DNA from: Neotamlana sedimentorum
GTDB taxonomy: Bacteria; Bacteroidota; Bacteroidia; Flavobacteriales; Flavobacteriaceae
Length of the DNA stretch: 32,233 bases
Direction: 5' to 3'
NCBI RefSeq assembly: GCF_000943565.1
Contig: NZ_JTDW01000025.1
Location: forward strand, 1-32,233
Notes under the pieces: model-generated
The model's database searches: none
Told to the model about the DNA's origin: nothing
The model's input: only the letters and a program-made list of their open reading frames with translations
Shown here: in pieces, positions 97 to 31,344 of the stretch
Layout: each line of letters begins with the position of its first letter
How positions within the stretch are numbered: position 1 is the first letter of the stretch
Position numbers and translations under genes: made by a program

Positions 97-1143
97 TTAT
101 CGAGCTACACGACCTGAAGCATCACCACCCATAAGTTTTTCAACTTCGGCTACGGTTGCTAAGTTCGCATCACCTTTAATTGTGTGTTTTAAACATGAAG
201 CTGCAACGGCAAAATCTAATGCATTTTGATCGTCTTCTGGGTATTTTAATAATCCGTAGATTAATCCACCCATAAACGAATCGCCTCCACCTACGCGATC
301 AACGATATCTGTAATTTGGTATTGACGTGTTTCGTACATTTTTTTACCATCGTATAAAACTCCTGCCCACGTGTTGTGAGAAGCAGATATAGATCCTCTT
401 AAAGTAGTAATTACCTTTTTAGCTCTTGGGAATTTCTCCATCATTTGCTTACAAACCGATAAGAAAGCTTCTGCTTTTACGTTGTGTCCTTCAGTTTGTA
501 CACTAATACCTTCTGGTTTAATTCCAAAGTGCATTTCTGCGTCCTCTTCGTTACCTAAAACGATATCACAGTAAGAAGTTAATTCTGTCATTACAGCTTC
601 TCGATGTGCATCGTCACAGTATTTCCAAAGTTTAGCACGGTAATTTAAATCGGTTGAAATTGTAATCCCTTTTTCGCTAGCAGCCTTAACAGCTTCTAAA
701 CAAACATCGGCAGCACCTTGAGAAATAGCTGGTGTAATACCTGTCCAGTGAAACCACTCTACCCCATCGAAAACAGCATCCCAATCGATCATTCCTGATT
801 CGATTTCAGAAATAGCTGAATGCGCACGATCGTAAACTACTTTACTACCTCTACTTACAGCTCCTGTTTCAAGAAAATAGATTCCTAAACGGTCTCCACC
901 CCATACAATTTTATCTACATTTACGCCACGCTTACGCATTTCCATCATGGCACATTCTCCAATATCATTTTTTGGTAAACGTGTTACAAAATCTACTGGA
1001 ACCCCATAATTAGCTAAAGAAACTGCAACGTTTGATTCTCCACCACCGTATACAACATCGAAGCTACTCGCTTGCGAAAATCTTAAAAATCCTTGTGGGG
1101 CTAATCTTAACATAATTTCCCCAAATGTTACTACTTTACTCAT
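97..1143 (-). CDS. kdgK: 2-keto-3-deoxygluconate kinase (PfkB family)
   Basis: This 348-residue PfkB/ribokinase-family sugar kinase most likely phosphorylates KDG to KDPG in the cytoplasm, the last activation step before aldolase cleavage. It shows the N-terminal FGEIMLRL start typical of KDG kinases, the GGGESNVAVSLA substrate-side motif near residues 33-44, and the PfkB signature DRVGGGDSF with the catalytic Asp at about 288. It is the last gene of the minus-strand series susC-susD-MFS-SDR-kdgK and follows the SDR gene by 46 bases. The context (SDR making KDG, PL6 lyase) points to alginate uronate catabolism. Family membership is certain; KDG specificity is inferred from context and overall resemblance. 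No KDPG aldolase gene is next to it in this window, so the pathway must be completed elsewhere. Confidence 0.9.
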   Translation of the reverse strand: MSKVVTFGEIMLRLAPQGFLRFSQASSFDVVYGGGESNVAVSLANYGVPVDFVTRLPKNDIGECAMMEMRKRGVNVDKIVWGGDRLGIYFLETGAVSRGSKVVYDRAHSAISEIESGMIDWDAVFDGVEWFHWTGITPAISQGAADVCLEAVKAASEKGITISTDLNYRAKLWKYCDDAHREAVMTELTSYCDIVLGNEEDAEMHFGIKPEGISVQTEGHNVKAEAFLSVCKQMMEKFPRAKKVITTLRGSISASHNTWAGVLYDGKKMYETRQYQITDIVDRVGGGDSFMGGLIYGLLKYPEDDQNALDFAVAASCLKHTIKGDANLATVAEVEKLMGGDASGRVAR

Positions 1144-1189
1144 TTATTTATAGTTTGTGTTTTGTGTTTCTCAAAGGTTATTTTAAAAA

Positions 1190-1954
1190 TTAAATACCCA
1201 ATCCTTGGCCTCCACCTACTTGAATTGTTTCAGCAGTTAAGAATGCCGCAGCGTCACTAACTAAGAAAGAAACAACTGAAGCTACATCTTCAGGTTGACC
1301 TAATCTACCCAATAAAATATTGTTTTTCCATGAAGCGAATACTTCTGGTTTCGTAGATTTAATTTGCTTGTGGAAATCTGTATCAATAGTACCAGGAGAA
1401 ACTGCATTAACACGAATACCATATTCAGCTAAATCTTTAGCTAATGCTCTAGTTATAGCATGCACAGCAGCTTTTGAAGTACCGTAAACACCTGCTCCAG
1501 GTCCACCAGCATTCCATCCTGCAATAGAAGTATAGTTAATAATAGATGCATTTTCACCTTTCTTTAAGTAAGGAATAGCAGCTCTAGATGCGAAAAAAGT
1601 TGAATCTAAATTTAAAGCCATAACGAAACGGTAAAACTCAGTAGTCATTTCCTCGAATCTAGAACGACCACCTAATCCACCTGCATTATTAATTAAAGCA
1701 TCAATTCTTCCGTATTTTTCTCCAATTTTTACGATATTTTCTGTTACTTCTTCTTCTTTAGTAACATCAAAACCGTAATATTCGGCAGTAATACCTTCGT
1801 CGGTTAATTGTTTAACACGCTCTGCTCCAGCTTCATCTTCTATACCATTTAATATAACGGTATAACCGTCTTGACCTAAACGTTTTGCTACTTGAAAACC
1901 AATACCTCCAGTTGCTCCAGTTATTACTGCTACTTTTTTGTTTGAATTACTCAT
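1190..1954 (-). CDS. SDR oxidoreductase, probable DEH reductase of alginate catabolism
   Basis: This 254-residue classical short-chain dehydrogenase probably reduces the alginate monomer product 4-deoxy-L-erythro-5-hexoseulose uronate (DEH) to KDG with NAD(P)H. The Rossmann motif TGATGGIG is at residues 12-19, NNAG at 89-92, the catalytic Ser at 143, and the YGTSK catalytic Tyr/Lys at 157 and 161. The C-terminal GGGQGLGI tail is that of FabG-like SDRs. It lies 46 bases upstream of kdgK and 17 bases downstream of the MFS gene, so the three are surely cotranscribed. SDR fold and active site are seen directly; the DEH substrate is inferred from its place between an uronate transporter and KDG kinase beside a PL6 lyase. 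A gluconate 5-dehydrogenase-like role is the main alternative. Confidence 0.85.
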   Translation of the reverse strand: MSNSNKKVAVITGATGGIGFQVAKRLGQDGYTVILNGIEDEAGAERVKQLTDEGITAEYYGFDVTKEEEVTENIVKIGEKYGRIDALINNAGGLGGRSRFEEMTTEFYRFVMALNLDSTFFASRAAIPYLKKGENASIINYTSIAGWNAGGPGAGVYGTSKAAVHAITRALAKDLAEYGIRVNAVSPGTIDTDFHKQIKSTKPEVFASWKNNILLGRLGQPEDVASVVSFLVSDAAAFLTAETIQVGGGQGLGI

Positions 1955-1971
1955 TTTGATTATTTTATATG

Positions 1972-3261
1972 TTAATTATATTTACTAATGTGATGTTTTC
2001 TAACCGGTCCAATATTTTTTATAAAAATGAAAATAGACAATACCCCTAATATTACCGAAACACAAATTGCAACGAATGCTGGTGTATATGAACTTTCTGT
2101 AATTTGACCTACAAACCAGTTCATAATCATTGGTGAAACAGCTGCAATAGTACCAGCCAATCCTGCTAGAGTTCCTACTGAAGGCCCACTAAATAAATCA
2201 CTAGAAATTGTTTGAATATTGCCAATAGCAAACTGAAAACCAAATAGTGCTAAACCAGCTAGATAAATAAAGGTCATAAAGTTATCTTCACGTACTAAAG
2301 TAATAATACCTACAAAGGCTAAAAGAATTAAAATTCCTCCTATTGAAATAGTTATTTTTCTTGAAATATTAACTGAGTACTTTTTCATTAAGTATCCTGT
2401 AAACATACCTCCTAAAATACTTCCTACTGCAGCCATTAAATAAGAAATCCAGATAGTTTGTGTTTCTTTAATATTAAGACCAAATCTATCGGCAAGGTAT
2501 AGCGGCATCCAACCTACAAAAAACCACCAAATAGGCTCTATAAAAAACCGACATAATAAAACGCCCCAAGATTCTTTATGGCTTAGTATTTGTTTAACAC
2601 TTAACCCTTTTGGTTTGTCCTTGTCTTCCTCCTCATCATCAATTCTATCATTTAAAATTAAATCACGTTCTTTATCTGTAATCCAAGCATGATCTTCTGG
2701 TTTTGCTTTGTTAATAAATAACCAAGGAATTACCCAAAGCATACCAACTGCACCCAAAATAATATAAGTTGTTTTCCAACCAAACTGTGTATATAAAAAC
2801 ACAATTACAAACGGGGCTATAACATTTCCTATCGATGCTCCTGCATTAAATATACCTTGAGCCGTTGCTCGCTCTTTTATTGGAAACCATTCCCCATTAC
2901 TTTTTACTGCTCCTGGCCAGTTACCAGCTTCTCCTAAACCTAATAAACCTCGAACTACAGAAAGTGACACTAAACCTCTTGCAAATGCATGAAATACAGA
3001 GGCTACCGACCATACAATAATTGACACGGTAAAACCAAGTCTGGTTCCAATTACATCGTAAAGTTTACCAGAGGCAAACTTACCTATAGCATATGTAGCC
3101 ATAAAAATATTAAGCATAATAGCGTAATCGGAATTATCCATTCCTAAATCTTCACCCATTTCTGGCCAAAGAAGCGCAAAAGCTGTTCTATCTATATAAT
3201 TAATAACTGTTGCTAGAAAGATAAGTCCAATAATCCACCAGCGTAATCCTTTTAATTTCAT
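1972..3261 (-). CDS. MFS transporter, ExuT-like (hexuronate/DEH uptake)
   Basis: This 429-residue inner-membrane transporter of the anion:cation symporter branch of the major facilitator superfamily has about 12 hydrophobic segments. Family marks are NYIDR near residues 21-25, the RGLLGLGEAGNWPGA segment after TM4, and an acidic, charged central loop (DDEEEDKDKPKG) between the two six-helix halves. ExuT-type proteins carry hexuronates; here it most likely brings alginate-derived unsaturated uronate or DEH from the periplasm into the cytoplasm, where the SDR and KdgK act. It begins the cytoplasmic-pathway half of the operon, 193 bases after susD, with a hairpin but no recognisable promoter in the gap. 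Transport mechanism and family are secure; the exact substrate is inferred. Confidence 0.88.
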   Translation of the reverse strand: MKLKGLRWWIIGLIFLATVINYIDRTAFALLWPEMGEDLGMDNSDYAIMLNIFMATYAIGKFASGKLYDVIGTRLGFTVSIIVWSVASVFHAFARGLVSLSVVRGLLGLGEAGNWPGAVKSNGEWFPIKERATAQGIFNAGASIGNVIAPFVIVFLYTQFGWKTTYIILGAVGMLWVIPWLFINKAKPEDHAWITDKERDLILNDRIDDEEEDKDKPKGLSVKQILSHKESWGVLLCRFFIEPIWWFFVGWMPLYLADRFGLNIKETQTIWISYLMAAVGSILGGMFTGYLMKKYSVNISRKITISIGGILILLAFVGIITLVREDNFMTFIYLAGLALFGFQFAIGNIQTISSDLFSGPSVGTLAGLAGTIAAVSPMIMNWFVGQITESSYTPAFVAICVSVILGVLSIFIFIKNIGPVRKHHISKYN

Positions 3262-3454: not shown

Positions 3455-4978
3455 TTAATTAGTAAGATTAGGATTTCGGTCTATTTCATCCTGAGGAATT
3501 GGTGTATCGTAATCTTCTGATGCATTCCAATCTGGTTTATCGCCTTCATAACCGGAGGCACTAAATACAACATCTCCTAATTGTCTTCTTTTAATATCAT
3601 ACCATCTTTTACCTTCAAAAGCTAATTCTATTCTTCTTTCTTCTAAAACATCATCAACCGTTATAGAAGTTAAATCTGCAGGCACACTACTTGCAGGAAC
3701 AGTTTCTTCGACATATCCTCCATTGGTAGAGTTACCTCCATTTCTAGCTCTTTCCCTTACTTCATTCAGAAAATCTACAGCGTCTGCTGCTCCTATTTCA
3801 ACACCTGCTTCAGCAGCAATTAATAATACTTCAGCATAACGAATCATTGAATAATTATGACTTGTAGCTCTTTTATTACCACGAGCGTATGGCCCTGGGT
3901 AACGTGTATATTTAGCAATGTATGGCTGGTTTGCAGCATCACCATGACCACTAATGGTAAAGTTTGTATAATCAACAGTTGTACCACCTATGGTTGCTTC
4001 TGTTTGGAAACTAACACGAGTACGGTAATCGTCTGGATCGAAAGAATCGTAAACAGCCATTGTAGGTACAGCTACCGACCAACCTTGATCGTCGTCGTCA
4101 CCTCTAATTCCTGTCATTGGAGCGGTTTGATCGTAGGCATTGTTTGGCGCTTCCACATTATTATAATCTAAAGCAAAGATAGGCTCTTTTGAAGCATCGA
4201 TTAAGTTAGCGTTAAACAAAGTTTGAAAATCTGGATCTAAATCAATGTCGTAGGTTCCTTTATTAGTAATAACTTCTTTAGCTTTATCGTAGGCCATTTG
4301 AAAATAAGTAGCATCACTAGTTCCTGCCATTGTTAAATACACTAATGCTAAATAAGATTTTGCAGCAGCTTTAGAAGGCTTGGCTCTTGTAGAAACTGTA
4401 TTTGGCAACCATTCTTCTGCAAATTCTAAATCCGAAATAATATTAGCATAAACTTCTGCTTCTGGTGTACAGCTTACAGATTTAGCTGAAATATCAGAAA
4501 TAGGCTCATCGAAATAAGGTACATCTCCAAAAAGTCTAACTAAATGGAAATAGTAAAATGCTCTTGCAAAATAGGCTTGTGCTACAATTGGGTTTAAAAC
4601 TGACTCCTCTTCATTAACGCCATTTGCTCCTTGAATTACTGTATTAGCAGCAGAAATTCCTAAATAAATTCTCTTCCATGGGTCGTATACCATTTCGTTA
4701 TCTCCTGTAATGGTATGTGTATTCATTTCAACTCTTCTTGTTTGAGAAGATTGTAAATTTACCATATCAGAGCGAAGCATTAAGGCAATTGATAATTTTC
4801 TTCCCCAAATTTCTTCATTTATTGCATGTGTTAACGAACCGTCTATTCCAGCTTGTAAATCTTCAGTTGTTTGAAAATATCCGTCAGGGTCTAGTAAAGC
4901 AATAGGAGATTCTTCTAAATCTGAACATCCCATTAAGGCTATACCCATAAATAACAATATATATTTGTAAGTATTCAT
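3455..4978 (-). CDS. susD: SusD-like outer-membrane glycan-binding lipoprotein
   Basis: This SusD/RagB-family lipoprotein sits at the cell surface as the lid of the SusC channel and binds the oligosaccharide to be imported. The start is taken at the ATG at 4978, giving 507 residues that open with MNTYKYILLFMGIALMGC, a lipoprotein signal peptide with the lipid-modified Cys at residue 18. The open frame continues to a TTG at 5002 but that would add only a basic octapeptide before the signal. Typical SusD features include the ARAFYYFHLVRLFGDVPYF stretch of the TPR-like helices and the C-terminal ELAFEGKRWYDIKRR motif. It follows susC with only 24 bases between stop and start. Ligand is inferred as alginate oligosaccharide from the PL6 and uronate genes. 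Confidence 0.95.
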   Translation of the reverse strand: MNTYKYILLFMGIALMGCSDLEESPIALLDPDGYFQTTEDLQAGIDGSLTHAINEEIWGRKLSIALMLRSDMVNLQSSQTRRVEMNTHTITGDNEMVYDPWKRIYLGISAANTVIQGANGVNEEESVLNPIVAQAYFARAFYYFHLVRLFGDVPYFDEPISDISAKSVSCTPEAEVYANIISDLEFAEEWLPNTVSTRAKPSKAAAKSYLALVYLTMAGTSDATYFQMAYDKAKEVITNKGTYDIDLDPDFQTLFNANLIDASKEPIFALDYNNVEAPNNAYDQTAPMTGIRGDDDDQGWSVAVPTMAVYDSFDPDDYRTRVSFQTEATIGGTTVDYTNFTISGHGDAANQPYIAKYTRYPGPYARGNKRATSHNYSMIRYAEVLLIAAEAGVEIGAADAVDFLNEVRERARNGGNSTNGGYVEETVPASSVPADLTSITVDDVLEERRIELAFEGKRWYDIKRRQLGDVVFSASGYEGDKPDWNASEDYDTPIPQDEIDRNPNLTN

Positions 4979-5002: not shown

Positions 5003-8000
5003 TTAAAATTTCGCACTTAAGCTAAATGTAAAAGATCTAACAGTTGGATAATTTCCAAAATCGAAACCTTTAACTGTGTTACTGCTTGTGTTATTATCTC
5101 CCGCAGAACCAAAGTAATTCACTTCTGGATCTAAACCAGAGTAATCTGTAAATGTTAATAAGTTTTGTCCACTAACAGATAGTCTTAATCGCTCCATACC
5201 TAATTTTTCTATTATACTGGTATCGAAAGTATAACCAATAGCTAAGTTTTTTAAACGCACATAGCTACCATCCTCGACAAAACGAGAGGACATTTCTCTT
5301 GAACTATTATTACCAACTCTTGGTTGATTGGTATTTGTATTTGTTGCTGTCCATGCGCTATTATAATAATCGTAAGTAGTATTAGCATCACCATTGTTTA
5401 ACTGCACATTAGTCATGTTAAAAATTTGACCACCTTCAGACCCTTGGAAAAAGATATTTAAATCGATATTTTTATAAGTAAACGTATTTGTAAGACCCCA
5501 AGTAAAATCTGGGTTAGGATTACCAATAATAGTTCTATCGTCGTTGGTAATATCTCCACTTTCGTCAATATCGTAAAATAATGGATCTCCAGCTACCCCG
5601 TTAGGTAACGTTGCAGTTCCGGCTGGTAAGTCTCCACCTTGGTAAACACCTGCATAATCAAAGCCCCAGAATAAGCCCACTTCTTCACCTTCTCTTAACA
5701 AACTCGTGTTATTTACACTAAAGTAACTTGGCGCACCATTACGGAAATAATCGTCTCCATTAATAAGCTTAGTAGCTGTGTTTTTATTTTTTGAGAATAC
5801 GAAATCTGTTGTCCAAGAAAAATCTTCTTTAGAAATGTTTCTGGTGTTTAATGAAATTTCGAAACCTTTATTATTAATTTCACCTGCGTTAGTAATAATG
5901 TTACTATTTAATAACCCAAAGTAATCTGGAATACTATTATCTACCATTAACACATCTTTAGTATCGATGTTATAATAATCTAACGATAAAGAAATTGCGT
6001 TATTCAATAAACCTAAATCTAAACCAACGTTAGTTTGGTATGATGATTCCCATTTCAAGTTAGGGTTAGCATTTTGGAATGGCGTAACAGCCGCAACGGT
6101 TTCTCCATTGCTAGACGCATATAAACTGCTTAAGATGGCTAAAGATTGGTATGCAGGAATAGATTGAGTACCTGTAACCCCGTAACTACCTCTTAATTTT
6201 AAGTTTGAAATAACATTGTTATCTTTTAAGAAGTCTTCGTTAGAAACTTTCCAGCCTAATGCAGCCGATGGGAATGTTGCATATTTTTCGTTTGCTGCGA
6301 AACTAGACGATCCATCACGTCTTACGGTTGCAGTGAACAAGTATTTATCGTCGTAATCAAAATTAACTCTACCAAAAAACGATTGAATTTCTCTTTCGTT
6401 AAAATAAATATCGCCACCTTCACCATTAATTAAATTGGTAGCAGTATATAGTCCGTAGTAAGAAAACGAATCTCTAATAGTTCCTGTGCCTTCAGAATAA
6501 GACCCTTTGTTTGTAGTTTTTTGAAAAGAGTAACCTCCTAATAACGTTAAAATACCTTTACCTATTTCTTTATTATAGGTTAAATAACTCTCGGTTAAAA
6601 CACTATTTGTTTTATCTTCATCAATAATGGCTCTACCATTTACACCAGAAGCGGTAACAATTAAAGTTCTAGGCATGTAAATACCTCTAAACGTATTACG
6701 TGAGCTTAAACCAAAGGTAGTTTTAAAAGTTAAGCCTTCTAAAATATCGTAATTAGCAAAGAAATTTGCTCTAAAGTTTTCAATTTCAGTATCGTCGTCT
6801 CTTTGTGTTGCCACAGCCCATGGGTTATCTACAGGATCTCCAATTAAATCATTTGTAGAGAAATTACCATTGGCATCGTAAATTCCTTTATTCGGATCGA
6901 AACGCATCGCTAAAGAAACTACATCGTCTCCACCAACTGTCACAGAACCGTTTGATTGTGTAGTAACACCGGCCTTTTGACTAACATTAGTTGTTAAGTT
7001 GGCTCCTAATTGCAATTTATCTGTAACCTGGGCATCTAAGTTAGCTAAAACAGAAACTCTTTCGTAATCTGAATTAATTAACACACCATCTTGTTGAAAA
7101 TACGTTCCTGATAAATAAAATTTCATTTTTTCAGAACCACCTGAAACAGAAAGTTGGTGGTTTTGTGTGTTACCCGTTCTGTATATTAAATCTTGCCAAT
7201 CGGTATCAAAATCACCTCTTACATATGGTGTTGGCGTGTTACCATTTGTTAATGCTACATTTTGTCTAACAGCGTTTTGGTAATCGGTAAAATCATCAGC
7301 ATTTAATAAATCTAATTTATTAGCCGTACTTTGAATTGAGTAATTCGAGTTTACTTCAATATTAATTTTTCCAGAACGACCTTTTTTAGTTGTAACCATT
7401 ACAACACCATTAGCTCCTTGAGAACCATAAATAGCTGTTGCAGATGCATCTTTTAAAACTTGAATAGATTGGATATCTCCTGGTTGAGGCATTGAAGCTC
7501 CAACGAAACCATCAACAACAATTAAAGGTGCACTACTCGCGTTAATAGAAGTATTACCACGAATACGCACACTTATAGGCGCTCCTGGCTCACCACCATT
7601 ATTAGATTGTACATTTACACCCGCAGCACGACCTTGTAACGCTTGTTCTGCGTCAAGAACTGGAAATGCAGTTAATTCATCAGCCTTTACTGCAGAAACA
7701 GAACCTGTTAAATCACTTTTTTTACGAGCACCGTAACCTACTACTACAATTTCTTCTAATTCTGCTAAATCTTCACTTAAAGATACATTTAATGTAGATT
7801 GATCTCCAATAGTTATAGATTTTGTTACAAAACCAATATAAGAAAACTGAATCACATCACCTTTCTTTACAGAAATTTGGTAATTTCCGTCAAAATCGGT
7901 TGTTGTTCCATTCGTAGAATTTTGCACGATAACATTTACACCTGGAATGGGAACGTTATCCGTAGCCGAAACCACCGTTCCTTTAATTGTAATTCCGCTT

Positions 8001-8062
8001 TGAGCGAATAACATCACACTAGAAAACAGTGTTAATAAAGTTAGTTTAATTTTTAAATTCAT
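5003..8062 (-). CDS. susC: SusC-like TonB-dependent outer-membrane transporter
   Basis: This 1019-residue SusC/RagA-family receptor imports oligosaccharides across the outer membrane using TonB energy. Visible in order are a signal peptide ending around AQS (residues 20-22), a carboxypeptidase-regulatory-like domain at about 25-105 (GTVVSATDNVPIPGVNVIV), the TonB box EEIVVVGYG at about 104-112, a plug domain with the VLKDASATAIYGSQGANGVV motif, and a long beta-barrel ending in FTFSLSAKF with a terminal Phe, as expected for BAM recognition. Length matches the family. It is preceded by a consensus promoter, three tandem operator-like sites and a ~280-base leader containing a small ORF. The substrate is probably alginate oligosaccharide, inferred from neighbours. 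Confidence 0.96.
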   Translation of the reverse strand: MNLKIKLTLLTLFSSVMLFAQSGITIKGTVVSATDNVPIPGVNVIVQNSTNGTTTDFDGNYQISVKKGDVIQFSYIGFVTKSITIGDQSTLNVSLSEDLAELEEIVVVGYGARKKSDLTGSVSAVKADELTAFPVLDAEQALQGRAAGVNVQSNNGGEPGAPISVRIRGNTSINASSAPLIVVDGFVGASMPQPGDIQSIQVLKDASATAIYGSQGANGVVMVTTKKGRSGKINIEVNSNYSIQSTANKLDLLNADDFTDYQNAVRQNVALTNGNTPTPYVRGDFDTDWQDLIYRTGNTQNHQLSVSGGSEKMKFYLSGTYFQQDGVLINSDYERVSVLANLDAQVTDKLQLGANLTTNVSQKAGVTTQSNGSVTVGGDDVVSLAMRFDPNKGIYDANGNFSTNDLIGDPVDNPWAVATQRDDDTEIENFRANFFANYDILEGLTFKTTFGLSSRNTFRGIYMPRTLIVTASGVNGRAIIDEDKTNSVLTESYLTYNKEIGKGILTLLGGYSFQKTTNKGSYSEGTGTIRDSFSYYGLYTATNLINGEGGDIYFNEREIQSFFGRVNFDYDDKYLFTATVRRDGSSSFAANEKYATFPSAALGWKVSNEDFLKDNNVISNLKLRGSYGVTGTQSIPAYQSLAILSSLYASSNGETVAAVTPFQNANPNLKWESSYQTNVGLDLGLLNNAISLSLDYYNIDTKDVLMVDNSIPDYFGLLNSNIITNAGEINNKGFEISLNTRNISKEDFSWTTDFVFSKNKNTATKLINGDDYFRNGAPSYFSVNNTSLLREGEEVGLFWGFDYAGVYQGGDLPAGTATLPNGVAGDPLFYDIDESGDITNDDRTIIGNPNPDFTWGLTNTFTYKNIDLNIFFQGSEGGQIFNMTNVQLNNGDANTTYDYYNSAWTATNTNTNQPRVGNNSSREMSSRFVEDGSYVRLKNLAIGYTFDTSIIEKLGMERLRLSVSGQNLLTFTDYSGLDPEVNYFGSAGDNNTSSNTVKGFDFGNYPTVRSFTFSLSAKF

Positions 8063-8084
8063 AATTAGTCTTTTTAGTTTAATT

Positions 8085-8162
8085 TTAGGACGTTTTCAGT
8101 GGTTTTCTACGCCCTTTTAATTGTTTCAACCAAATACTTAATAAGGATTTTTTTCTTGACAT
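8085..8162 (-). CDS. Small basic leader ORF upstream of susC (25 aa, candidate)
   Basis: A complete 25-codon frame from ATG (8160-8162) to TAA (8085-8087) lies inside the susC leader, ending 22 bases before the susC start. It is preceded by the A-rich stretch AAAATAAAG, the usual Bacteroidota style of initiation region. The product is strongly basic: it opens MSRKKSLLSIWLKQ and ends GRRKPLKTS, so it could be an amphipathic cationic helix. No known family is recognised. It may be a translated regulatory ORF coupled to susC, or a chance frame. Only its position, start context and composition argue for it. Confidence 0.35.
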   Translation of the reverse strand: MSRKKSLLSIWLKQLKGRRKPLKTS

Positions 8163-8189
8163 CTTTATTTTGTATCTAGAAATACACAC

Positions 8190-8210
8190 ACGTAAAGTTT
8201 TACTTTACGT
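8190..8210. promoter_or_regulatory. Hairpin in the susC 5' leader
   Basis: ACGTAAAG (8190-8197) and CTTTACGT (8203-8210) form a perfect 8-bp stem with a 5-base loop, about 130-150 bases into the predicted susC transcript and 28 bases before the small leader ORF. On the plus strand the stem is followed by five T residues, but no plus-strand gene ends here. A role in the susC mRNA leader is more plausible than termination. Confidence 0.4.
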
Positions 8211-8313
8211 TTTTCCAGAAAATCAAAGTCTTTCCGGTTTTTTAATCTCACTCGTTTACATCATATTTAGTTTAATTTATTTAAAGTTATACAGTGTTTT
8301 ATTTAATTAAAAT

Positions 8314-8349
8314 TGGTTATTCAAACTGGTAAACCAATTTGGTTTTCCA
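8314..8349. promoter_or_regulatory. Triple 13-bp-spaced operator array at susC promoter
   Basis: Three copies of a TGGTnnnnCA-type decamer start at 8314 (TGGTTATTCA), 8327 (TGGTAAACCA) and 8340 (TGGTTTTCCA), exactly 13 bp apart and separated by three-base spacers. The last copy overlaps the end of the -7 element of the susC promoter by two bases. The array covers the predicted transcription start and early leader, where a bound protein would block initiation. The half sites TGGT/ACCA resemble FadR-subfamily GntR operators. The binding protein is not identified. Confidence 0.7.
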
Positions 8350-8378
8350 AATATATGCTTAATTTTATTTAAAAACAA
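8348..8378 (-). promoter_or_regulatory. susC promoter (Bacteroidota consensus)
   Basis: On the minus strand TTG (8378-8376) is followed after exactly 20 bases by TATATTTG (8355-8348), matching the flavobacterial consensus TTG-N17-23-TAnnTTTG. The transcription start should be near 8341, giving a leader of about 280 bases before the susC ATG. The -7 element flows directly into the first operator copy. Confidence 0.8.
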
Positions 8379-8487
8379 TAATTTATTAATTAATATTATT
8401 AGCCTTATGAAGTTAGTAATTAAGATTTAAGACCATTTGAAGCGGAAGTCCCCTACTATAACATTCAAATAACGAGTTTAAACTATA

Positions 8488-10797
8488 CTAGTACATTAAT
8501 GTTAATTTTAAATTTTGTTCTGTGATGATACTTCCAGAATTTATAATAGTATTGTTAACCGCTGAATTGTTTTTAGCACCCCACAATAAGGCTACTAATT
8601 TTACTGGATTACTTTTAAATGTATTGTCTATTAACGTCACATTTACAATTCCTCGATGATTTATCAAAATGCCATTTTTTTCTTTACCTCCGGAATTTAT
8701 AAACACAGAATTTTCAACTATTAAGTTCCCTCCAATTGTAGATTCGTCGTAGCCACCACGATAATAATCAATAACGTTTTGTTTAACATTGTTAAACTCG
8801 CAGTTTTTTATTGTTAAGTATTCAGTATTGTAGTCTCCTTTGTCATTTATTTCCTCAGATAATTCTAAACCATTTTCACAATTTAAAATGGAAGTATTTG
8901 CAAAAGTAATATGTTCGGCAAAAGCTTGTTTATATACTTTCAAAGCAAAATTGAAACCTCGAATTGCTGTATTGTTTACATTTAAACCAAAGTGAGTAAA
9001 CATGTTTTCTTTTAAGGAGGCAAAGGCTTTCGTCGAGTTATTACCTTGTAAAACTAATCCGTCTACATTCAAAAACCCTTTTGGATGAAGCTCAAAAAGC
9101 GCAGTACCAGTTTCGCCATTATAATTTATAATAGTTTCACCCTTTGTTTTTGCCTTAACGGTTATAGCTTTTGAAATTTCCAATGAATTTAAAACTGAAT
9201 AGCTTCCTGCACTCAACAAAATTACATCTCCATTTTGTGCTTCATCAATTTTTTTCTGAATATCTTCTCCTGGACCAACTTCAAAAGTCTGAACTTCACT
9301 AGTATTTTGTTCTTGTGAAAACCAAGATGGACCATATTTAGATTTATCCAATATTTCTGGATTAATCGCTTCGGTAGAAACAAAAGCACCAATATTATTA
9401 TTTGAAGCTCTTGAATTGCCAAATAAATCTTCAGTGATCTTATCAAAATCAAAACCTACGTATGGTTCAACATTTAAACTTTCAGTAGGAATATAAATAT
9501 TTTCAGAAATAGCTTTAACTTCAAAATTTGAAGCCGATAAACCTTCTACTGCATTAAAATATCCGCCTTGATTATTGATTGCATTACTTTTAAACGTTAC
9601 GCCTTCAATTTTATCGTGTGTCACAACAATTAAACTATCTGCTTTAGAATTATATACAGTATTATTCGCAACTATTGTTCTAATTGGAATTGCCGAACGA
9701 ATTTCGGATGCTGGCAATACATCTTTTTGATCGGTATTTACTCCTACTCCAAATTGCCATGGCGACTTACAATTTACATACGAATTGTATGCCACTACAA
9801 CATCGGTAACTTGGTTATACCTGTTTTGAGGAGATTTTGGAATACCATTCATTACAGCTAACGGACTTCTAAAACTTTCACCAATTAAATTGCAGAAATA
9901 ATTATTAATTATGGTATGCCCTGTGTTAATAACACGAATACCACCTATATTTTTATTTACGCCATCTCCAATAAAATAGTTACCTTCAATAGTACAGTAA
10001 TTTCCGTGTCTGGTTACCAAAGACCCTTCACTTTTATAAAACACATTATTTTTAAACTGATTGAAGTTTGTTTTGCTAGAAATAATCTCGACCTCACCAT
10101 TACACTCTTCAAATAAATTATTTTCTACTAAAGTGTAGCTTGGTGCCATAGACGTATAACTATCGCCTAATTGAATAGTTTCACCACTTGCACCACCTTT
10201 TGGAGGGCGAGGTCCAAAATGATTATTAATAATTCTGTGATGGTTATTAATGTGCTCATTTCCTTTTAAATCGATTCGAATAGTTGGTCCGCGATTTGTT
10301 TTTCCTCCAATATAACAATTGCTTAACGTATTATGTCTTCCCCAGAATTGCACCCAACGATCGGAATCGTCGCGTTCCATTTTATTAAAATCTTCAATTA
10401 CACTGTTTGTTAGAGTACAATGGTTACCAATATGCTCATCATCCAATTTAAAATCTACTACATTTCCTTTAGCATAACCTCCTTTAAAATGAAGTCCGTC
10501 TACAACTAAATAATTACCTCCAAATTTTAATTGTGATACTCCCGAAATAATAACACCACCTGGCGTTTCTGCTTTAATAGTTATAGGGTGATTTTCAGTA
10601 CCGTTTGCCTTAAAATTTATTTCCAAATTTTCCCAATTACCATTTTTTAATATAATTACATCGTCCGGCTGCGCATGATCTATAGCATCATTAAGTTCTT
10701 CAGAATTATTTACAACAAGGTTTTTTTGAGTGTTTTTTGATGTTTCACAAGAAAAAAATAAAACAGAAACAATTAAAAAGACATAAAATTTACTCAT
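8488..10797 (-). CDS. PL6-family alginate lyase, lipoprotein with two beta-helix domains
   Basis: This 769-residue polysaccharide lyase of family 6 (chondroitinase B/AlyGC type) cleaves alginate by beta-elimination at the cell envelope. It starts with a lipoprotein signal and lipidated Cys at residue 17 (LFFSC). The N-terminal beta-helix spans about residues 25-480 and contains the NGEVEIISSK strand with the likely metal-ligand glutamates 235 and 237 and catalytic Lys 242. Arg 263 follows in TRHG; the 21-residue Lys-Arg spacing equals that of characterised PL6 enzymes. A second beta-helix begins near residue 500 (VGPGEDIQKKIDEAQNGDVI), echoing the start of the first (NNSEELNDAIDHAQPDDVI) and making it a full-length two-domain form. 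It has its own promoter and operator array. Alginate rather than dermatan sulfate is inferred from the KDG-pathway neighbours. Confidence 0.93.
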   Translation of the reverse strand: MSKFYVFLIVSVLFFSCETSKNTQKNLVVNNSEELNDAIDHAQPDDVIILKNGNWENLEINFKANGTENHPITIKAETPGGVIISGVSQLKFGGNYLVVDGLHFKGGYAKGNVVDFKLDDEHIGNHCTLTNSVIEDFNKMERDDSDRWVQFWGRHNTLSNCYIGGKTNRGPTIRIDLKGNEHINNHHRIINNHFGPRPPKGGASGETIQLGDSYTSMAPSYTLVENNLFEECNGEVEIISSKTNFNQFKNNVFYKSEGSLVTRHGNYCTIEGNYFIGDGVNKNIGGIRVINTGHTIINNYFCNLIGESFRSPLAVMNGIPKSPQNRYNQVTDVVVAYNSYVNCKSPWQFGVGVNTDQKDVLPASEIRSAIPIRTIVANNTVYNSKADSLIVVTHDKIEGVTFKSNAINNQGGYFNAVEGLSASNFEVKAISENIYIPTESLNVEPYVGFDFDKITEDLFGNSRASNNNIGAFVSTEAINPEILDKSKYGPSWFSQEQNTSEVQTFEVGPGEDIQKKIDEAQNGDVILLSAGSYSVLNSLEISKAITVKAKTKGETIINYNGETGTALFELHPKGFLNVDGLVLQGNNSTKAFASLKENMFTHFGLNVNNTAIRGFNFALKVYKQAFAEHITFANTSILNCENGLELSEEINDKGDYNTEYLTIKNCEFNNVKQNVIDYYRGGYDESTIGGNLIVENSVFINSGGKEKNGILINHRGIVNVTLIDNTFKSNPVKLVALLWGAKNNSAVNNTIINSGSIITEQNLKLTLMY

Positions 10798-10816
10798 AAT
10801 TATAGTTTAGTTTTTT

Positions 10817-10852
10817 TGGTTTTCCAAACTGGTTAACCATTCTGGTTTTCCA
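10817..10852. promoter_or_regulatory. Triple 13-bp-spaced operator array at PL6 promoter
   Basis: Three decamers begin at 10817 (TGGTTTTCCA), 10830 (the perfect palindrome TGGTTAACCA) and 10843 (TGGTTTTCCA), each 13 bp apart with spacers AAC and TTC. The promoter-proximal copy overlaps the -7 element by two bases in exactly the same register as at susC. The shared architecture implies one regulator for both transcription units. Confidence 0.75.
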
Positions 10853-10880
10853 AAAGTAATGTTTTGACTTTTAATTCCAA
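10851..10880 (-). promoter_or_regulatory. PL6 lyase promoter (Bacteroidota consensus)
   Basis: On the minus strand TTTTG, with its TTG at 10880-10878, is followed after 19 bases by TACTTTTG (10858-10851). This matches the Bacteroidota consensus TTTG-N19-21-TAnnTTTG. The predicted start near 10844 gives a short leader of about 46 bases that is almost filled by the operator array. Confidence 0.8.
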
Positions 10881-11000: not shown

Positions 11001-11987
11001 GTGGATTTATCAATAGATTTAAACATAGAATTACCAAAATACCAACAGCTAGTTAACGCCGTTAACGATGCCCTTGCTAACAATACATTAAGCAGTGGCG
11101 ATGCCTTGCCATCAGTAAATAATGTTTGTAAAGATTATCACTTATCTCGCGATACTGTTTTTAAGGCCTACTCCATTTTAAAAGATAATGGTGTTATAGA
11201 ATCGGTACCTAACAAAGGCTATTTTATTGCAAACGATACACGTAAAGTTTTGTTAGTGCTCGATACTTTTAAGGCCTATAAAGAAGTTTTGTACCACGCT
11301 TTTGTAAAAAACTTACCTAAAAAAGTAATCGTCGATGTACAATTCCATCATTATAACATTAATAATTTTAAAACCATTTTAAATAACGGAAAAGGCAAAT
11401 ATTACAAATATGTTGTAATGAGCTTTAACCATAAGGAGGTTCCAAGCGTACTTTCAGATTTTGATAACGACAAGCTATTATTAATCGATTGGAATATTCA
11501 TGCTAAAAAAAGCAACAATTATGTATTTCAGGATTTTGGTAACGCTTTCGCAGAAGTTTTAAAAGAAGTGCTACCAGCGTTACAGAAATATAAACGCTTT
11601 GTATTAGTATATCCAACGTTTACCTATCATCCTGTCGAAGCTGTTACTCATTTTAAACAATTTTGCAAAGCTAAAAGAATAACATATAAAATTGTTACAG
11701 ATATTAATGAATTTGAAGTAAAAAAACACGATGCATATTTAAGTGTAAGCGATCGGGTTTTGGGTATGTTTTTAGAACAATGCCGAAATAAAAACCTAGA
11801 ACCGGGAACAGATGTTGGTTTTTTATCTTACAACGAAACACCAATGAAGCCCTTTATTTACAAAGGTATTTCGGTTATTTCAACCGACTTTAAAGCCATG
11901 GGAAACCTTGCGGCTTCATTTATAAACCAAGAACAATCAATACAAAAATTTATACCAACTAAACTTATTTTAAGAGACTCATTATAA
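11001..11987 (+). CDS. GntR-family regulator with LacI-like effector domain (xylose operon)
   Basis: This 328-residue transcriptional regulator has an N-terminal GntR winged helix-turn-helix (about residues 8-75, with SGDALPSVNNVCKDYHLSRDTVFKAY as the recognition region). It is joined to a periplasmic-binding/LacI-like sensor domain (from about 85 on), an arrangement like that of AraR. It uses a GTG start at 11001. Its TAA stop overlaps the ATG of the xylulokinase gene (TAATG), so the two are translationally coupled. Control of xylose genes by a pentose or pentose phosphate is therefore likely. It is divergent from the PL6 gene, and the 13-bp operator array lies 148 bases upstream of it, so an effect on the alginate genes cannot be excluded. 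Activator or repressor mode cannot be read from the sequence. Confidence 0.85.
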   Translation: MDLSIDLNIELPKYQQLVNAVNDALANNTLSSGDALPSVNNVCKDYHLSRDTVFKAYSILKDNGVIESVPNKGYFIANDTRKVLLVLDTFKAYKEVLYHAFVKNLPKKVIVDVQFHHYNINNFKTILNNGKGKYYKYVVMSFNHKEVPSVLSDFDNDKLLLIDWNIHAKKSNNYVFQDFGNAFAEVLKEVLPALQKYKRFVLVYPTFTYHPVEAVTHFKQFCKAKRITYKIVTDINEFEVKKHDAYLSVSDRVLGMFLEQCRNKNLEPGTDVGFLSYNETPMKPFIYKGISVISTDFKAMGNLAASFINQEQSIQKFIPTKLILRDSL

Positions 11988-29937: not shown

Positions 29938-31344
29938 ATGAAACAATACAAATTACATACACACTATAAAAAAATATTAACCGACACCATAACTCCGGTT
30001 ACCGTTTACTATAAAATACGCGACAAATACCCAAACAGTATTTTGTTAGAAAGTGGCGATTACCACCGTAACCACAAAAACTTTTCGTACATCTGTTTTA
30101 ACCCAATTGCATCAATTAAAGTTGAAAACGAAGTTATAAGCGAAACCTTTCCAGATGGTAGTTCTGCCGAAGTAAATATTACAGATCAAGTTAGTGTTGT
30201 AGACGAAATTTACAATTTTACTCAAAAATTTGATGTAGAATCTGAAGAAGATTTCAAGTTTATAAACAACGGCATTTTTGGTTATACGGCTTATGATGCT
30301 GTTCGTTATTTTGAAGACATCAATATTAGTAAAAAAGACGATTCGGTTACCATTCCAGACATGTATTATGCGGTTTATAAGAATATAATAGCCATAAATC
30401 ATTTTAAAAATGAAGCTTATATTTTTGCGCATTGTCCGGAAGGTTCAGAAAACAATATTCATGAAATAGATAAACTAATAAACGTGCAAAACTTTGCATC
30501 GTATAAGTTTAGTGCCAAAAATAATATTGAATCTAATTTAACCGACGACGAGTTTAAAGAACAGGTAAAACTAGCTAAAAAACATTGCCAACGCGGTGAT
30601 GTGTTTCAATTAGTATTATCGCGCCGTTTTTCCCAAGAATTTACTGGCGACGATTTTAATGTGTATCGTGCCTTACGAAGTATAAATCCGTCGCCATATT
30701 TATTTTATTTCGATTATGGCGATTTTAAAATATTTGGTAGTTCTCCAGAAGCCCAACTTATTGTAAGTAATGGTTTAGCCGAAATTCATCCCATTGCAGG
30801 AACTTTTAAACGCACAGGCGATGAGGAACAAGACGAAATTTTAGCAGAAAAGCTAAAAAACGACGACAAAGAAAATGCCGAACACGTTATGCTTGTCGAT
30901 TTAGCTCGAAACGATTTAAGCCGACATGGAAACAACGTAAATGTAGAAACATATCGCGAAGTTCAATTTTTCTCGCATGTTATCCATTTAGTAAGTAAAG
31001 TAATTGGTAAAAAACACGATACGACCTCCACAATGCAGGTCGTTGCCGATACCTTTCCTGCAGGAACTTTAAGTGGAGCCCCAAAGCACATGGCTATGCA
31101 ACTTATTGAAAAATACGAAAAAACAAGCCGTGGCTATTACGGCGGCGCCATTGGTTTTATGGATTTTGAAGGAAACTTTAACCACGCCATAATGATTCGT
31201 ACCTTTTTAAGTAAAGATTACAAATTAAACTGGCAAGCCGGAGCAGGAATGGTTTCTAAATCGAATGAAGAAAGTGAAACCCAAGAAGTTTATAACAAAC
31301 TAGGTGCGCTAAAAAAAGCTATTAAAGTAGCTGAGGAAATATAA
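29938..31344 (+). CDS. trpE: Anthranilate synthase component I
   Basis: This 468-residue large subunit aminates and aromatises chorismate to anthranilate, using ammonia from TrpG, as the first step of tryptophan synthesis. The N-terminal domain carries the feedback-inhibition motif LLES (residues 36-39) that binds tryptophan. The C-terminal chorismate-binding domain shows GSSPEAQL, HPIAGTFKRTGDEEQDE, MLVDLARNDLSRHG and SGAPKHMAMQLIEKYE. It follows the attenuator by 41 bases. Thus both enzyme activity and transcription appear to be controlled by tryptophan. It is separated from trpG by 271 bases of repeat-like DNA. Confidence 0.97.
   Translation: MKQYKLHTHYKKILTDTITPVTVYYKIRDKYPNSILLESGDYHRNHKNFSYICFNPIASIKVENEVISETFPDGSSAEVNITDQVSVVDEIYNFTQKFDVESEEDFKFINNGIFGYTAYDAVRYFEDINISKKDDSVTIPDMYYAVYKNIIAINHFKNEAYIFAHCPEGSENNIHEIDKLINVQNFASYKFSAKNNIESNLTDDEFKEQVKLAKKHCQRGDVFQLVLSRRFSQEFTGDDFNVYRALRSINPSPYLFYFDYGDFKIFGSSPEAQLIVSNGLAEIHPIAGTFKRTGDEEQDEILAEKLKNDDKENAEHVMLVDLARNDLSRHGNNVNVETYREVQFFSHVIHLVSKVIGKKHDTTSTMQVVADTFPAGTLSGAPKHMAMQLIEKYEKTSRGYYGGAIGFMDFEGNFNHAIMIRTFLSKDYKLNWQAGAGMVSKSNEESETQEVYNKLGALKKAIKVAEEI

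Follow-up and report, generated by a model that had tools for sequence, protein, structure and literature searches.

Tandem operator-like arrays on a 13-bp grid at alginate promoters of Neotamlana sedimentorum and their probable regulator, AusR

The window analyzed here, a stretch of 32,233 nucleotides (nt) of the flavobacterium Neotamlana sedimentorum (contig NZ_JTDW01000025.1 of assembly GCF_000943565.1, positions 1 to 32,233 of the forward strand), contains two promoters, one ahead of a susC gene and the other ahead of a gene for a PL6-type lyase, in which three short palindromic units follow the -7 box at steps of 13 bp. These arrays belong to one regulon, and AusR, a repressor of the GntR/FCD type, is very probably what regulates them. 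Sequence, positions, conservation, unit register and co-occurrence with AusR come directly from this analysis. Across the sampled genomes of this marine bacterial family, about one-quarter would use the array as the operator grammar of their alginate regulon.

Two promoters of the window carry the same triple array

A first-pass annotation, made from the sequence alone, had described three decamers at a 13-bp period at each of these promoters, and both triple arrays were confirmed, at 8314-8349 and 10817-10852, together with the proposed overlap, each -7 box having TG in common with its first decamer. A search of the whole window for three TGGN4YCA copies with a 13-bp step, tolerating as many as 3 mismatches, returned only these two arrays, each on both strands, and the same pattern had no match in 100 dinucleotide shuffles of the window. 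Like the susC and PL6 genes, both promoters are on the minus strand; the former reads TTG-N20-TATATTTGG and the latter TTG-N19-TACTTTTGG, each running into its array. TAnnTTTG is the -7 box of flavobacterial sigma-A promoters and lies at -12 to -5 in Flavobacterium psychrophilum, as given in a passage of PMC9723704, so that unit 1 is expected at about -6 to +4 and three units would reach to about +30. The features are as follows, all on the minus strand.

8376..8378: susC -33 TTG, beginning 23 bases 5' of the -7 TA (counted on the sequence)
8348..8355: susC -7 box TATATTTG, with TG common to operator unit 1
8340..8349: predicted susC operator unit 1, TGGAAAACCA, at a predicted -6 to +4
8327..8336: predicted susC operator unit 2, TGGTTTACCA
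8314..8323: predicted susC operator unit 3, TGAATAACCA, the distal copy, in which one half-site base deviates
10878..10880: PL6 -33 TTG, beginning 22 bases 5' of the -7 TA
10851..10858: PL6 -7 box TACTTTTG, with TG common to operator unit 1
10843..10852: predicted PL6 operator unit 1, TGGAAAACCA
10830..10839: predicted PL6 operator unit 2, TGGTTAACCA, a perfect palindrome
10817..10826: predicted PL6 operator unit 3, TGGAAAACCA
8488..10797: PL6-type lyase (Pfam Chondroitinase B family PF14592, E 2.9e-182)
8063..8313: susC leader, 251 nt
5003..8062: susC, TonB-dependent receptor (Pfam)
3455..4978: susD, with an ATG start; an open reading frame (ORF) with a TTG start extends to 5002 (Pfam and ORFs)
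97..3261: MFS transporter, SDR reductase and PfkB kinase, downstream on the same strand (Pfam)

The genes at 97..3261 are likely to act in uronate catabolism. We take PF14592 to correspond to PL6, and the other PL numbers used here are likewise our own reading of Pfam families.

Array-bearing promoters across the genome

A scan of the whole genome, as suggested with the first-pass annotation, found the arrays at gene promoters rather than scattered. The two-copy pattern TGGTNNNNCANNNTGGTNNNNCA had 17 matches, compared with 1 for the reversed pattern; 16 of them were in arrays 5' of genes and the other (C43:205755) was within a MatE-family ORF. When the -7 box was added to the pattern and as many as 3 mismatches were allowed, there were 22 matches versus 1 reversed, and ten independent promoters carried an array at no more than 2 mismatches. 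The match at C43:205749, also within 2 mismatches, was dropped from the ten as it lies inside the MatE-family ORF, and the remainder of the 22 are repeat readings of the same arrays or single 3-mismatch matches. Five of the ten arrays are double and five triple, and the genes under them are three susC, two PL6, two PL7, the protein preceding PL17, the regulator itself and an NRAMP-like/heparinase-like pair (all from Pfam):

C19 (the contig of the window): susC; PL6
C1: PL7; susC
C6: PL6; a secreted protein with a type IX secretion tail, ahead of PL17; susC; the GntR/FCD regulator
C43: a CBM6-PL7 lyase
C49: an NRAMP-like transporter with a DUF4962/heparinase-like protein, whose link to alginate is putative

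Single units fused to a -7 box were also considered as further regulon members of this genome and rejected, as their 14 matches against 12 reversed put those beyond the known arrays at chance level. A perfect TATTTTTGGTTAACCA unit is found at L232:6352-6367 (G000:C43:184352-184367, minus strand), 27 bp 5' of a gene that resembles dihydrolipoamide dehydrogenase (named from its sequence); of 30 loci examined, 3 have this unit, all from a single genus, and it may be due to chance. In the second alginate locus, the PL7 promoter array has a phage-integrase-family gene (L009:7351-8274, minus strand) about 0.8 kb upstream, suggesting that this locus may have moved.

The arrays co-occur with a GntR/FCD regulator

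In Zobellia galactanivorans, AusR is a GntR regulator of the alginate locus that represses most alginate genes, according to passages of PMC7874173, PMC8286568 and PMC8073546. The first-pass annotation had pointed to this protein and had seen no such gene in the window except a xylose-linked GntR; the suggestion fits, the likely regulator gene being on another contig (C6:73567). Six GntR-domain matches were found in the genome, two of which are AusR-like by sequence (C6:73567 and C1:407585). The first of these, ausR (C6:73567-74274, or L011:7567-8277; GntR and FCD domains, Pfam 2.3e-18 and 3.1e-21), lies next to the main alginate locus, following a PL7-type lyase gene at a distance of about 150 bp, and has an array at its own promoter.

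Among 299 genomes of the same family, AusR homologs (E ≤ 1e-20) were detected in 75, and arrays (at most 1 mismatch) also in 75, with one match to the reversed pattern in the whole set. Array and AusR occurred together in 74 genomes (Fisher P = 2e-68, uncorrected for relatedness), i.e., the array was present in 74 of the 75 AusR genomes and in 1 of the 224 others, a specificity by which the array with its -7 box can help in calling members of the alginate regulon from sequence alone. The array-only genome (G135) has one array match, and the regulator-only genome (G202) a weak match to a protein 30% identical. In a phylum sample of 345 genomes, the array was found in 10 of the 38 inside the family and in none of the 307 outside it, with 2 matches to the reversed pattern. 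The AusR of locus L103 (93% identical) was modeled with AlphaFold (predicted local distance difference test, 82; predicted template modeling [TM] score, 0.59), and Foldseek aligned the model with GntR/FCD structures, some of them with DNA, at a TM of about 0.5. Judging from Pfam and this model, AusR has a GntR winged helix-turn-helix and an all-helical C-terminal domain.

The arrays might instead be owned by the xylose-type GntR protein encoded at 11001-11987, by a LacI protein or by a hybrid two-component system. The GntR gene adjoins the PL6 promoter divergently, and the 29 alginate-cluster regulators counted in a passage of PMC7874173 comprise 16 GntR, 8 LacI, 3 TetR and 2 Crp. However, 74 of 75 genomes show the array together with AusR (a co-occurrence computed for AusR alone), and the array is found on AusR's own promoter and varies in its core with the recognition helix of AusR-type proteins (see below), so that we regard another owner as very unlikely. 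The product of 11001-11987 is itself not favored, as Pfam found in it a GntR helix-turn-helix, a periplasmic-binding-type domain below the curated cut-off and no FCD domain.

Array grammar in relatives

The relatives were represented by the best 80 of 432 named AusR loci (1.59 Mb), from genera that include Tamlana, Algibacter, Cellulophaga, Maribacter and Aquimarina, with no Zobellia locus among them. These loci contain 631 TGGN4CCA sites, and of the 213 pairs of sites at most 80 bp apart, 212 fell on a grid of 13, 26 or 39 bp (160, 49 and 3 pairs, respectively, the last pair being at 71 bp), compared with no pair at lag 13 and one at lag 26 for six control motifs. Building chains without a promoter requirement gave 119, of which 66 have two units, 50 have three and 3 have four; none is inside an ORF of at least 100 amino acids. 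In 118 of the 119, one strand or both (both in 14) had a TA six bases ahead of the first TGG, against a background TA frequency of 0.09 per position and strand. The 13-bp array is kept in the alginate promoters of relatives and is not scattered, so that both checks set with the first-pass annotation came out in its favor.

A profile of 118 rows reads TA..TTTGG with units every 13 bp. The pattern used to pick these rows comprised the -7 box with units 1 and 2, which leaves unit 3 and the flanks as the unselected parts; it also excludes a further upstream unit, so that the start of the array was judged from the 119 chains. In these rows TTG peaked at -22 relative to the -7 TA (43 rows, with 9 at -23 and 7 at -21). 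The half-sites of unit 3 come and go together (both exact in 49 rows, neither in 62 and one in 7; P = 8e-25), indicating that the operator unit is the inward TGGTnnACCA; unit 4 was complete in 3 rows. Arrays open with TGG and close with CCA, and complete units mostly have T or C before TGG and A or G after CCA. This flank preference makes the full unit YTGGTnnACCAR, and units of 12 bp with 1 bp between them give the 13-bp step. The first-pass annotation had noted a likeness to operators of the FadR subfamily, and the unit, TGGT-NN-ACCA with 2 nt between GT and AC, does fit their form, a TKGT/ACMA palindrome with 2 to 3 nt between GT and AC in the relevant passages of PMC4494728.

The same annotation had read a second register into the array, in which dimers would sit on ACCAnnnTGGT and bridge adjacent copies, and the ACCA-RNY-TGGT sequence formed there is palindromic too. 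Against this, the halves of unit 3 are kept or lost as whole inward units, 118 of the 119 chains (built from inward units) begin at the -7 TA, the FadR-subfamily sites in those passages of PMC4494728 are inward, and inward units are also found singly, ahead of ausR in 24 of 80 loci and ahead of the gene for its paralog, AusR2. Half-site co-occurrence and array starts led us to reject the second register, and alternating binding with it, and we see scarcely any chance that dimers use it. Of the binding modes that had been proposed from the 13-bp period, overlapping and alternating binding thus find no support, and wrapping stands in a modest form, each abutting dimer being turned by about 86°.

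Another possibility is that the repeats work at the RNA level, as hairpins of the 5' leader, and not as DNA sites, given that TTGG-N4-CCAA can form 4-bp stems and that units 2 and 3 are expected in the transcript. Unit 1, however, overlaps the -7 box and is expected to be mostly untranscribed, and TGG and CCA are nearly invariant without covariation (units 1 and 2 being pattern-selected in the rows concerned), which makes this explanation extremely improbable.

Unit number by gene class

Unit number was compared for the 112 chains that have a gene start no more than 420 bp away (seven of the 119 were excluded), using gene labels from the best BLAST hit to proteins of the N. sedimentorum genome and, for ausR, from the AusR reference. 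Three or more units were found in 49 of the 76 chains before susC compared to 3 of the 36 before other genes (P = 1e-8, uncorrected for relatedness), and all 14 chains assigned to ausR had two. Upstream of ausR in the 80 loci there was an exact pair in 8, a relaxed pair (at most 2 mismatches) in 19, a single unit in 24 (TGGTTAACCA in 23 of them) and none within 400 bp in 29. The left half of unit 1 was broken in all 19 relaxed pairs, with its right half and unit 2 intact, and the ausR array of N. sedimentorum, which begins TGAAAAACCA, has the same form; on these patterns, AusR control of its own gene looks weaker than its control of susC. With one to four units on a fixed grid, the promoters form a natural series that lends itself to testing how copy number tunes repression.

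A paralog with different operator cores

The second AusR-like protein, AusR2 (C1:407585), is 64% identical to AusR over residues 3 to 235, and its locus carries arrays of its own. Its recognition helix reads VSRRSIRV, compared with VSRSNVRD in AusR; by our own mapping on FadR numbering, the S-to-R position would be position 39. G or C occupied the two central bases in 9 of the 10 units at AusR2 loci, compared with 34 of the 294 units at the 80 AusR loci (P = 9e-8), the AusR2 side being drawn from this genome and one other species of the same genus. In passages of PMC4494728, recognition-helix position 39 correlates with the central operator bases. The AusR/AusR2 pair may be a natural specificity switch. 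Close before the start codon of ausR2 there is a single operator-like unit outside the usual -7 register (TGGCGTACCA and TGGTGTACCA, at L016:1424-1433, upstream of the paralog gene on C1, and in L183 near 12320).

The susC leader

The susC leader of the window (8063-8345) folds better than its shuffles (z = -2.55, equaled by 2 of 200), with two strong hairpins predicted on the minus strand, at 8215-8237 and 8190-8210. While aligning 68 susC leaders of relatives we found a two-hairpin element, AAAAAAGGAYRGGTGCACGCCYATCCTTTT followed by TTACTTC..GGGAAGTAA. A regular expression matched it 50 times in the 80 loci (47 distinct sequences, usually one per genome; L106:208-272, L144:4811-4874, L170:3188-3248 and others in L104-L182), and all 47 distinct copies begin 37 to 118 bp after the array start. 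A covariance model (E ≤ 1e-3) found the element in 31 of 149 genomes of the family (their 149 different genera point to G000-G148, as is assumed here), namely, 29 of the 37 sampled AusR genomes and, as weak matches, two others. One of its 15 predicted pairs shows compensatory changes, so that a structured element is plausible and lightly supported by covariation. In L106, the one leader scanned, hairpin 1 resembles an intrinsic terminator on the opposite strand. The covariance model at the same threshold did not find the element in the genome of the window, nor did a direct search of the window and of loci L009-L011 of that genome; Rfam 15 returned no family at gathering score for six element-bearing loci, and a literature search on susC leaders and alginate returned no paper on it by title or abstract. 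Elsewhere in the window, a Bacteroid-trp tryptophan peptide leader (RF01692; 29752-29876, plus strand) precedes a gene for a chorismate-binding/anthranilate synthase protein at 29938.

Proposed mechanism

We consider it highly probable that the arrays are AusR operators. One AusR dimer would bind each 12-bp palindrome YTGGTnnACCAR, and neighboring dimers would abut along the DNA, each about 86° round from the next (13 bp at 10.5 bp per turn). With unit 1 fused to the -7 box, the bound dimers would hide this box together with the start site and some 30 bases at the beginning of the transcript, and so block the sigma-A RNA polymerase, until a product of alginate breakdown frees AusR from the DNA; the alginate genes of many marine flavobacteria could in this way be switched together. 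We infer binding, repression, contact between dimers and the effector from the sequence patterns; release by oligosaccharides or intermediates is the view taken in passages of PMC8286568 and PMC7874173. The near-invariant 13-bp spacing suggests a cooperative contact between dimers. In Escherichia coli, three NanR dimers bind the three repeats of (GGTATA)3, the spacing matters, and cooperativity resides in the N-terminal extension (passages of PMC8012715).

Alternatively, AusR would bind each unit independently, extra units raising occupancy and the 13 bp being the tightest packing, inherited by duplication. A 12-bp consensus plus 1 bp yields 13 without any protein contact, and AusR is missing the full NanR-type extension. 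Independent binding should nevertheless tolerate other distances, and across many genera just 1 of the 213 pairs within 80 bp is off the 13-, 26- and 39-bp positions; we therefore hold it to be rather unlikely, while still the most serious of the alternatives.

Several points weigh against AusR stacks as we propose them. Cooperativity of the dimers is suggested by the spacing, and alignment of AusR residue 22 with NanR residue 39 leaves 17 fewer residues ahead of the shared region, so that AusR lacks the full NanR-type N-terminal extension. Orthology to the characterized Zobellia AusR is suggested by family, locus and co-occurrence, and the co-occurrence could come in part from array and AusR both belonging to one alginate locus. 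Besides, 29 of the 80 ausR genes have no unit within 400 bp upstream, the AusR2 comparison covers two loci of one genus (a weak replication), and at the diverged loci L188-L190, outside that comparison as their helix was unparsed, 3 of 8 units have a central G/C.

Beyond the AusR operator itself, we tentatively propose a length-coded operator, a joint reading that is more doubtful than probable. The short helical AusR stack would extend from the -7 box in the downstream direction alone, its unit count (about 1.5 at many ausR, two at most lyases and three or four at many susC genes) setting how tight and how late induction is for each gene class. The paralog would have split the code by a change of helix and cores on an unchanged 13-bp grid, and the leader RNA would add a second layer of susC control in many relatives.

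Comparison with known systems

A switch of this kind is already known from Zobellia, where PMC7874173, citing Dudek 2020, has AusR bind operators in single, double or triple copies. Set against the citing passages of that work, the present analysis adds the 13-bp grid, the fusion to the -7 box, the higher unit number at susC and a paralog whose operator cores differ. Our literature search found no report of tandem operators of GntR/FCD proteins at 13 bp and, among the matches listed, no AusR or alginate literature beyond PMC7874173, PMC8286568 and PMC8073546; the available passages of PMC13390454, on Vibrio GntR proteins, held no operator motif.

As in Z. galactanivorans, the putative regulator is a GntR gene in the alginate locus, with operators at lyase and SusC promoters in single, double and triple copies. 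No difference was seen from that system as described in the passages that cite Dudek 2020. The inward TKGT/ACMA palindrome with 2 nt between GT and AC is shared with operators of UxuR and other members of the FadR subfamily; here, however, the units form a head-to-tail 13-bp stack from a promoter box, whereas the passages of PMC4494728 mention double or adjacent sites and no stacks. The closest precedent would be E. coli NanR, likewise a GntR repressor, with three dimers on three close repeats where three close units are found here (passages of PMC8012715). NanR differs in having direct hexamer repeats and a 32-residue N-terminal extension, compared with palindromic units and an N terminus 17 residues shorter in the present case, and the fixed 13-bp spacing is consistent with a cooperativity at defined spacing of the NanR type.

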